Assembly: GCA_913057195.1 (NCBI GenBank) | Contig: CAJXNL010000008.1 | Coordinates: 1 to 64,000, forward strand | Reading direction: 5' to 3' | Source of the DNA: an uncultured Wenzhouxiangella sp. | GTDB lineage: Bacteria; Pseudomonadota; Gammaproteobacteria; Xanthomonadales; Wenzhouxiangellaceae | Length of the DNA stretch: 64,000 bases | In this document: in pieces, positions 32,986 through 35,415 of the stretch | Numbering within the stretch: position 1 is the first letter of the stretch | How the letters are laid out: every line of letters starts with the position of its first letter | The notes under the pieces: generated by a model | What the model was told of the DNA's origin: nothing | Databases searched by the model: none | Seen by the model: the letters and a program-made list of their open reading frames with translations, nothing else | Made by a program: the position numbers and the translations under genes

Positions 32986-35415
32986 TTAGAACACCTGACC
33001 GAAACTAAATTGTAAGGTCTGAACCTCATCGCCTTGACGTTTGATCAATGGCTGGGAAAGGTTAATCACAATCGGGCCCACGGGCGCTTGCCACCTGACT
33101 GAAAACCCGGTTGAGGCCCTGAGTAAGTCAGCATCAAAACTGTCATAGTTTGAAAAGACATTGCCCACATCAACAAACCAAGACAATCGTGTCCCAGACG
33201 CCTCGACAAAGGGAATGGGGAAAGCAAATTCAACGCCACCGGAGAGCTTAAAATCCCCCCCAACTGAACGACAGAAGCGGTCTTTGGGGCCGAGTGAGTT
33301 GTCGTCAAAGCCTCGAATATCGGAAACACCGCCTGCAAAAAAGTGCTCATAAAAAGGCAGGCCATCATCGAGCGTGACAATCTCATCGACCTGACAGCGG
33401 CCCGCCAGTCGCTCGGGCTCAATGGGTTCAATGCCGACTTTGTCGTCGTAATCGTCAAACACGCCACCATAGGATACATCCGCGCGCAGACCAAATGCCA
33501 TCGTCTGTCCGACAGGCCAGTATTTCCGGCCTCGATATGAGAACTTGTAGTATTCTCGCGTGCTTCCTGGCAGCGCGACTTCGCTGGTGAGGCGATTCAA
33601 TGAACCTTGGGTGGGGTTCAAGTAGTGGTTTCGACTGTCGCGAGACCAAGTTGCATCAAGCACGTAAGATGTGACCCGACGCTCTGAAGCCGAGATCAAC
33701 CCGTCTTGATCCTCATCCAACGAAATCCCCAAGGGCCGCTCAGCGGGTGTCGCCAAGACGACCGGTGAGTCAGGGTCATCAGGATCGGTTGGCAAGAACG
33801 CCACGGGGAGATTGATGTCAATGCGCTGGGCAGACGCACCGACGCGCAAGAAGTCAAGCTCGGTCAAGGGAAAGCCAAAGCTGACGCCACCGGCGGCCTG
33901 ACTGGTTGAAAACGAGGAAATGTTGGCATCACCCTGATCAAACTCGGTATAGCGCAAGAAAAAGCCCCGAGAGACGCCATCATCGGTGTAGTACGGGTTG
34001 GTATAGTTGACACCGATCTGCGACAAGATTGAGCTTCTTGAGACGGAAAAGCCCACCTGGCGCCCTGAGCCCAAGAAGTTGTTCTGTTCGACAGAAACCG
34101 AGGCAATCAAGCCTTGGATTTGGGAGTAACCCAAACCCACTTGGAAGTTGCCTGAGGGGGTTTCTTCGACGCTGACGGTGATGTCGATTTGATCATCGCT
34201 GCCATCGACCGGTTCAGTCTCGATGTTCACGTTGTCAAAAAAGCCCAAGCGCTCGATGCGTATTTTAGAGCGATCCAGGAGGGCTTGTGAGAACCAAGAG
34301 CCCTCGAATTGACGCATCTCGCGGCGAAGCACTTCATCTTTACTTTGATCGTTGCCCTCAAACTCAATGCGTCGCACGTACACACGCTGGCCGGGTTCAA
34401 CAAAAAAGTTCAGTTCCACCTCTTGGTTTTCACGGTCCAGTGAGGGCCTGGGGTTCACGTTGGCAAATGCATAGCCAATGTTGGACAGCACGGCGGTGAT
34501 ATTTTCAACCGACGCTTCGATGTCTTTTCTGGAAAATCGATCGCCAATCTCAATGACCAGCAGGCGGCGCAAAAACTCCTCTGTCAACACAAGATCGCCA
34601 GTAATATTGATGTCGCTGACGGTGAAGACCTCGCCCTCTCGGATATTCGCGGTGACAAAAATATCCTGCGCATCGGGGCTAATAGAGACCTGAGTTGACT
34701 CAATGGCAAAGTCAATGTAGCCCCGGTCGAGGTAGAAAGAGCGGAGTGTTTCAAGATCGCCTGAGAGCTTTTCACTCGTATACTGGGTCTTGCCTTGCCA
34801 AAATCGCCAGCCGCGCTTTGTGTCCGTCTCAAAGTCGTCCCGCAACTCCTCTTCGGTGAAGCTTTCATTGCCAACAATATTGATATGGCGCACCTGAGCC
34901 TGATCACCTTCAGTGATGTCAATCACCAAAGAGACTCGATTTCTCACCAAATTGGTGACTTGCATATCCACATTGACGTTGTAGTAGCCGCGGCCAAAAT
35001 ACTGACGCACAAGCTCTTGTTGGATTCGATCCAGGTTGAGTTGGTTAAAAATCTCACCCTCAGCAATGCCAATCCCTGCCAACGCGGGCATCATTTCCTC
35101 GGTCTTAATTTGCCGGTTGCCCGTGATAGAAATTGATGAGATGGCGGGGCGCTCTTGGACTTCAATAATCAGCGTGTTGTTGTCTCTCAGGAGTTCAACA
35201 TCCGAAAAAAAGCCCGTTTGGTAGAGATCACGAATGGTCGAACGTGCCAATGCAGGGGTGTATTCGTCACCCACCTCGATTGGGATAAAACTGAAAATGT
35301 TGCCTTCCGAGATTCGTTGGATGCCATCTACACGGATGTCTTCAACGATAAAGCGCTCCCCCCACGCTGGACTGGCGGTGATCACAAAGATCAAAATAGC
35401 GAGGACTTTTCTCAT
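32986..35415 (-). CDS. bamA: Outer-membrane barrel assembly protein BamA with an EF-hand-like loop
   Basis: Core of the BAM complex, 809 residues. Signal peptide 1-19 (cleavage after WG), five POTRA domains (about 21-420) and a 16-stranded Omp85 barrel. The conserved loop-6 motif is IRGFDDNSLGP at 700-710, with the usual closing strands. Residues 567-578 read DEDQDGLISASE, a perfect EF-hand loop pattern (acidic at 1, 3, 5, Gly at 6, Ile at 8, Glu at 12). They lie in a long insertion (about 540-585) that aligns with extracellular loop 3 of E. coli BamA; the preceding part DPDDPDSP is also acidic. Position between rseP and skp is standard. Confidence 0.96.
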   Translation of the reverse strand: MRKVLAILIFVITASPAWGERFIVEDIRVDGIQRISEGNIFSFIPIEVGDEYTPALARSTIRDLYQTGFFSDVELLRDNNTLIIEVQERPAISSISITGNRQIKTEEMMPALAGIGIAEGEIFNQLNLDRIQQELVRQYFGRGYYNVNVDMQVTNLVRNRVSLVIDITEGDQAQVRHINIVGNESFTEEELRDDFETDTKRGWRFWQGKTQYTSEKLSGDLETLRSFYLDRGYIDFAIESTQVSISPDAQDIFVTANIREGEVFTVSDINITGDLVLTEEFLRRLLVIEIGDRFSRKDIEASVENITAVLSNIGYAFANVNPRPSLDRENQEVELNFFVEPGQRVYVRRIEFEGNDQSKDEVLRREMRQFEGSWFSQALLDRSKIRIERLGFFDNVNIETEPVDGSDDQIDITVSVEETPSGNFQVGLGYSQIQGLIASVSVEQNNFLGSGRQVGFSVSRSSILSQIGVNYTNPYYTDDGVSRGFFLRYTEFDQGDANISSFSTSQAAGGVSFGFPLTELDFLRVGASAQRIDINLPVAFLPTDPDDPDSPVVLATPAERPLGISLDEDQDGLISASERRVTSYVLDATWSRDSRNHYLNPTQGSLNRLTSEVALPGSTREYYKFSYRGRKYWPVGQTMAFGLRADVSYGGVFDDYDDKVGIEPIEPERLAGRCQVDEIVTLDDGLPFYEHFFAGGVSDIRGFDDNSLGPKDRFCRSVGGDFKLSGGVEFAFPIPFVEASGTRLSWFVDVGNVFSNYDSFDADLLRASTGFSVRWQAPVGPIVINLSQPLIKRQGDEVQTLQFSFGQVF

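Follow-up and report, generated by a model that had tools for sequence, protein, structure and literature searches.

An EF-hand-type loop in predicted extracellular loop 4 of BamA from Wenzhouxiangellaceae and a neighbouring family

BamA, EF-hand loops and calcium at the outer face

BamA is essential, and its outer loops have been studied as drug and antibody targets. The BamA/Omp85 proteins of Proteobacteria share five POTRA domains, a 16-stranded barrel and, in the loop from strand 11 to strand 12, an RGF motif. The inhibitory antibody MAB1 binds E. coli BamA at loop 4 (PMC6287456). In Bacteroidota, BAM carries an extracellular canopy in which BamM is structured by seven metal ions, assigned as calcium on the basis of their coordination, and the term 'EF-hand' is absent from the main text of that report (PMC12611786). 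These BamM ions are the nearest parallel that we found for the BamA loop described below: the likeness lies in calcium at the extracellular face of a BAM complex, and the difference in that the Bacteroidota ions belong to the separate protein BamM and not to BamA. Among the papers listed in a literature search with few subscription journals, judged by titles and the openings of abstracts, none described an EF-hand or Ca2+ site in BamA. Both BamA and EF-type loops are well known.

EF-hand or DxDxDG loops, such as those of calmodulin and dockerin, have the 12-residue length and the residues D1, D/N3, D/N5, G6, I/L8 and E12 in common with the BamA loop, for which short entering and leaving helices are likewise predicted. 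In contrast to the loops of calmodulin and dockerin, the BamA loop is single, lies between two barrel strands, has an Arg at position 13 and, in the protein analyzed here, scores below the Pfam cut-off. Canonical EF-hands act in pairs, and their position 13 is usually hydrophobic.

The BamA gene of the window and the position of the loop

We analyzed a stretch of 64,000 nucleotides from an uncultured Wenzhouxiangella sp., hereafter the window. Its bamA gene (32986-35415, minus strand) encodes 809 residues, which comprise five POTRA domains followed by a barrel of 16 strands. The domain scan assigned five stretches to PF07244 (E 4.9e-70) and the barrel family Omp85 (PF01103) with an E-value of 5.5e-67, and the same scan of the whole protein gave no EF-hand match. 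The best solved relatives of the protein were BamA structures; for example, the barrel modelled with AlphaFold2 (AF2) aligned to 4k3b, the BamA of N. gonorrhoeae, with a Z score of 34.0 and an rmsd of 2.6 over 343 residues, although such PDB fold searches speak to the identity of the barrel as BamA and have no bearing on the EF-type loop. As is characteristic of BamA, 16 strands were counted in the AF2 model by DSSP, and the RGF motif (here DIRGF) falls between strands 11 and 12. The gene is flanked upstream by an rseP-like reading frame and downstream by a skp-like one, followed by lpxD-, fabZ-, lpxA- and lpxB-like frames (all named from their translations); bamA of E. coli K-12 likewise lies between rseP and skp. 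The genome of the window measures 1.78 Mb at 99% completeness and most genomes of the genus are larger (up to 4.2 Mb), so that it may be a streamlined member of its genus.

The sequence-only reading had located an EF-hand loop at residues 567-578 of this protein, and we found DEDQDGLISASE exactly there (33682..33717, minus strand), with D1, D3, D5, G6, I8 and E12 all correctly named. The loop is immediately followed by Arg579 (33679..33681, minus strand) at EF position 13. It is preceded by a short predicted helix, GISL (residues 563-566; 33718..33729, minus strand), whose last residue, L566, was found in 57 of the 58 aligned proteins of Wenzhouxiangellaceae (f1, the family of the window) and a neighbouring family (f8). 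Further upstream, the motif DPDDPD (residues 544-549; 33769..33786, minus strand) lies in the turn of a predicted beta-hairpin, and its D544 and P545 were each present in 51 of 57 ungapped rows.

Structure models predict that the EF-type loop belongs to extracellular loop 4, between strands 7 and 8. In the AF2 model of the window's barrel (mean pLDDT 88.2; built without templates from a 128-row alignment), strand 7 comprises model residues 102-116 and strand 8 comprises residues 161-174. The EF-type loop occupies residues 148-159, with helices at 144-147 and 157-160 before and after it (block pLDDT 87-89). A two-residue strand (154-155) lies inside the loop, at the point where EF-hands have a short strand. 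The model of an f8 protein (L051; no templates, mean pLDDT 90.4) placed the loop at residues 164-175 with a block pLDDT of 94-95 and flanking helices at 158-163 and 173-176, and the two-residue strand was absent. The flanking helices in the two models, of 4-6 residues, are shorter than the classical E and F helices. In the established topology, with the POTRA domains at the N-terminus inside the periplasm, each loop that comes after an odd-numbered strand points out of the cell; coming after strand 7, the EF-type loop is accordingly predicted to face outward, and it is numbered loop 4 because the RGF motif lies in the loop joining strands 11 and 12. The alignment agrees, since residue H555 in L4 of E. 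coli BamA (PMC6287456) aligns into window residues of about 536-578. Loop 4 thus defined by strand count and alignment spans residues of about 536-578 (33682..33810, minus strand), that is, 43 residues, whereas the corresponding anchors in E. coli BamA enclose a loop 4 (about residues 538-564) of 27 residues without an EF-type loop. The earlier suggestion of an acidic insertion in an extracellular loop therefore stands with respect to its side of the membrane and its extra length of about 16 residues, but its assignment to loop 3 has to be replaced by loop 4. A periplasmic turn was ruled out by the strand count, and the model likewise places the loop outside the periplasmic turns.

Conservation, family membership and distribution

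We collected BamA from 130 of 149 genomes with a BamA match, reading the loop wherever it was present. The strict pattern D-x-[DN]-x-[DN]-G-x-[ILV]-x3-E was matched by 52 of 59 proteins from the two families (f1, 35/40; f8, 17/19), compared with 0/70 in proteins of ten further families within the order. A looser pattern was matched by 38/40, 19/19 and 1/70, respectively, and the sole match among the 70 outside proteins was an acidic run in a protein of another family (f2). Residue statistics were based on 58 aligned proteins, without L036, truncated by its contig end ahead of the loop, and L090, whose reading frame is broken; the pattern count of 59 adds the second piece of the latter. In L090 (G017:C144:25800-28350), bamA falls into two open stretches of 541 and 380 codons, of which the second keeps the loop, and this split is perhaps an assembly error.

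Among the 58 aligned proteins, D567 was present in 58, D or N at 569 in 56, D or N at 571 in 57, G572 in 53 and I or L at 574 in 58, and position 578 was E in 57 and D in the other one. Five proteins deviated from the strict pattern by a single residue (L010, L037, L038, L052 and L056). Weakened loops were observed in two species of the window's genus: DQTGDGFLSRDE in L014, which with T at position 3 is one residue off the strict pattern and outside the loose pattern as well, and DRDGSQLLSRQD in L019, which differs at three positions (S at 5, Q at 6 and D at 12). The six key columns had a mean entropy of 0.52 bits versus 1.84 for the remaining columns within residues 536-584, and only 62 of 100,000 random six-column draws were equally low. 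When compared across the whole barrel, D567 and E578 were among the least variable sites, while D569 (54th percentile of variability) and D571, G572 and I574 (31st to 34th) were unexceptional. Synonymous codons were mixed at D567 (26 GAT, 32 GAC) and E578 (35 GAG, 22 GAA). As a partly independent check, we examined 67 named loci of the clade picked by two peptide patterns outside the loop, and the strict motif was kept in all 17 that were new to the set. Loss of the acidic positions in close relatives, which would have spoken against the first interpretation, was not observed, since they were kept in nearly all of them.

Resemblance to an EF-hand by chance was assessed by shuffling. With residues 538-590 shuffled 200,000 times, the strict pattern appeared in a fraction of 6.5e-5 and the looser one in 0.0033, and with the whole protein shuffled 20,000 times the strict pattern appeared in 0.00115. 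By themselves these figures would be weak for a reader scanning many proteins, and it is the conservation that decides; the two together ruled out a chance resemblance. Accordingly, it is very improbable that the motif arose by drift in a surface loop that changes quickly under the influence of phages and antagonists. The remainder of loop 4, which varies in both sequence and length, would suit such an origin, but the key residues are kept across two families of one clade and the strict motif is rare among the shuffled sequences.

We then compared the loop with EF-hand families. The first 12 positions of PROSITE PS00018 were matched by the window's loop and by 55 of the 58 proteins, and by 0/70 outside the two families. 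However, the full pattern with its hydrophobic position 13 was matched by 0/58, as position 13 is Arg579 in all 58. The loop piece of the window reached 11.7 bits (E 0.19) against the Pfam family EF-hand_5, below the cut-off of 25.9, and in a search of the whole genome with EF-hand_5 the BamA loop scored 11.4 bits and no protein passed the cut-off. A weak EF-hand_5 match (E <= 10) was obtained for 36 of the 58 loop pieces, with a best E-value of 0.0028, and an unrelated family, WW_TCERG1, reached 0.0024 in five of them. These weak Pfam matches therefore carry little weight, because unrelated families reach similar E-values. The sequence had earlier been called a perfect EF-hand loop; this holds for its 12 loop positions but not for position 13 or for the Pfam score.

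The membership results would also suit a metal-free acidic turn in which D, N and G residues form Asx-turns and helix caps and the EF likeness is convergent: the window's piece falls short of the Pfam cut-off at E-values that unrelated families share, and the hydrophobic position 13 is missing throughout. We nevertheless regard such a turn as unlikely, since it would not lead one to expect the invariance of D1 and I/L8 and the near invariance of E12 across the 58 proteins, where these residues stay constant while their synonymous codons vary.

To describe the distribution of the loop, we searched with a 48-position model (A3) covering the EF-type loop and strand 8. Among 398 genomes of the order, 76 had full-length matches (from position 1-2 to 47-48, at least 80 bits), 40 of them in Wenzhouxiangellaceae and 36 in f8; the model had been built from 58 of these genomes, and the 18 independent ones probably overlap the 17 named loci mentioned above. 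The next best match in the order scored 46 bits and began at position 11. Three Wenzhouxiangellaceae genomes were without a match, namely G004 and G042, in which BamA was not found either, and G007, whose contig ends before the loop, as were at least two of f8 (G553 and G561). The nearest named records belong to Wenzhouxiangellaceae (Wenzhouxiangella limi, W. sediminis and many MAGs), with loop sequences equal to those of genomes of the window's genus (g1), and on this basis f1 was taken to be Wenzhouxiangellaceae. By sequence, f8 corresponds to MAGs labelled Lysobacterales, Xanthomonadales or plain Gammaproteobacteria, and in a few cases Chromatiales or Oceanospirillales.

In a sample of 369 genomes of the class, 74 matched A3, and the whole EF-type loop (model positions 9-20) was covered only in the window's genome, the remaining matches beginning at position 10 or later. 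When 29 other loci of this sample were read by eye, including those of three f113 genomes with matches from positions 10-12, no EF-type loop was found; the other 44 matching genomes were judged by their A3 positions. A divergent loop could also lie in a genome without an A3 match. In a sample of 398 genomes of the phylum, which has some genomes in common with the class sample and was judged by A3 match positions alone, 27 matched, and apart from the window's genome these matches began at position 19 or later. The EF-type loop was likewise absent from four poribacterial Omp85 matches (L200-L203) and from Silanimonas (L199). A wider spread in Proteobacteria was thus rejected for the two samples searched with A3. 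In a tree of 128 BamA proteins computed without loop 4 (quick method, midpoint root; L014 and L019, with their degenerate loops, labelled as carriers by hand), the 58 proteins of the two families formed one side of a branch with an SH-aLRT support of 100. The loop is conserved within this one clade and restricted to it, and therefore a single origin before the split of f1 and f8 is most likely. Within the clade, the Wenzhouxiangellaceae genera g3-g5 branch apart from the other members of that family, at an unresolved fork with f8.

Possible roles of the loop

We consider it probable that the EF-type loop is a permanent structural Ca2+ site that fixes the shape of loop 4 over the barrel mouth. 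By the EF-hand rule, one Ca2+ would be held by three side chains (D567, D569 and D571), by the backbone carbonyl of L573 and by E578 through both of its oxygens, with S575 probably holding a water molecule that coordinates the ion. The predicted short helix would enter the loop, and one helical turn after it would run into strand 8. Binding of an ion would partly neutralise the acidic 43-residue loop 4 and would fix its exit into strand 8, directly at Arg579. In this way, a Ca2+ staple could give the enlarged acidic loop one fixed shape. Three points here are inferred: the identity of the ion as Ca2+, its binding in vivo, and selection for rigidity as opposed to regulation. The strict conservation within one clade and the helices predicted around the loop favour this reading. 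The Arg at position 13, the low Pfam score, the single rather than paired loop, the unexceptional variability of some key columns within the barrel, the weakened loops of L014 and L019 and the missing two-residue strand in the L051 model speak against it.

Alternatively, the site might act as a Ca2+ sensor, the filling of which alters loop 4 and, by way of this loop, barrel opening or the folding rate, so that assembly is tuned to outside Ca2+; in a variant, filling would report the arrival of the loop at the cell surface. A sensor would be in keeping with the extracellular placement predicted by strand count, and in E. coli, MAB1 inhibits BamA and H555Y in L4 disrupts MAB1 binding, while an allosteric effect of L4 on distal parts is described by the authors as speculative but possible (PMC6287456). 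We consider the sensor and its variant, taken jointly, rather improbable: no regulatory partner or conditional feature was found for the BamA protein, to which this search was confined, and D or N at positions 1, 3 and 5 with E at 12 suggests a tight site and not a switch. In addition, sea water, with about 10 mM Ca2+, would keep a site with the usual EF affinity filled at all times. Stated for the machinery as a whole, a calcium-responsive insertase, in which Ca2+ bound by loop 4 would shut or stiffen the extracellular cap and thereby change the rate or place of outer-membrane protein assembly, is to be regarded with the same reserve; if true, surface assembly would read the ion content outside.

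The habitats of the carriers bear on the identity of the ion. Isolate codes in the record titles of the carriers (CSSed, GSL, PLM and others) presumably denote soda lakes, salt lakes and sediments, so that the link to a marine or saline habitat proposed in the sequence-only reading is plausible. However, free Ca2+ is scarce in soda lakes, which disfavours a simple account in terms of surroundings rich in calcium. Low free Ca2+ in places from which some carriers appear to come, together with the position of loop 4 on the outer face, would be in line with a cation other than Ca2+ (Mg2+ or a lanthanide) or with an ion that bridges to lipopolysaccharide phosphates. Such a role seems more doubtful still than that of a sensor or a metal-free turn, because a 12-residue loop ending in Glu is characteristic of Ca2+ sites; in Mg2+ sites, Asp tends to occupy position 12, and the loops of lanmodulin carry a Pro at position 2. 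The records of the two species with weakened loops (L150 and L153, which share the loop 4 of L014 and L019) bear names with 'CSSed', which we take to mean soda-lake sediments. As many other CSSed genomes keep the loop, a tie between the weakened loops and this sediment is no more than a hint.

With regard to the relation between the outer face of BamA and its activity, a metal site in loop 4 would give a built-in handle, the occupancy of which could be set by adding or chelating Ca2+. If the rigidity of loop 4 affects assembly, Wenzhouxiangellaceae and the f8 lineage would permit a direct test.

Cysteines were also observed on the predicted outer face. Residues 674 (33394..33396, minus strand) and 715 (33271..33273, minus strand), both in extracellular loop 6, are Cys in all 58 proteins, and Cys was outside the four commonest states at these positions in families other than f1 and f8. 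From the sequences, a clade-specific Cys674-Cys715 disulfide in loop 6 is possible. Two Cys were found inside the loop-4 stretch in 26 of the 58 proteins, and in 14 of those 26 (L035, L037-L040, L047, L049, L051, L053 and L055-L059) a stretch of the form D-x-[NDG]-x-[ND]-x-x-C, such as DINQNGIC, lies upstream of the EF-type loop. Perhaps this stretch is a further Ca2+ site, secured by a disulfide; it is absent in the other 44 of the 58, in which the EF-type loop of loop 4 stands single. The Cys pairs of loops 4 and 6 would fit a stiffened outer face.

In the genome of the window, three proteins gave weak EF-hand_5 matches (E <= 1), namely BamA, an FG-GAP-like protein (L236) and a TonB-dependent-receptor-like protein (L234), the last two named by reading their translations. 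The last of these, probably an outer-membrane barrel protein unrelated to BamA, carries the EF-type loop DLNGDGVVDEAE (G000:C22:27062-27097).
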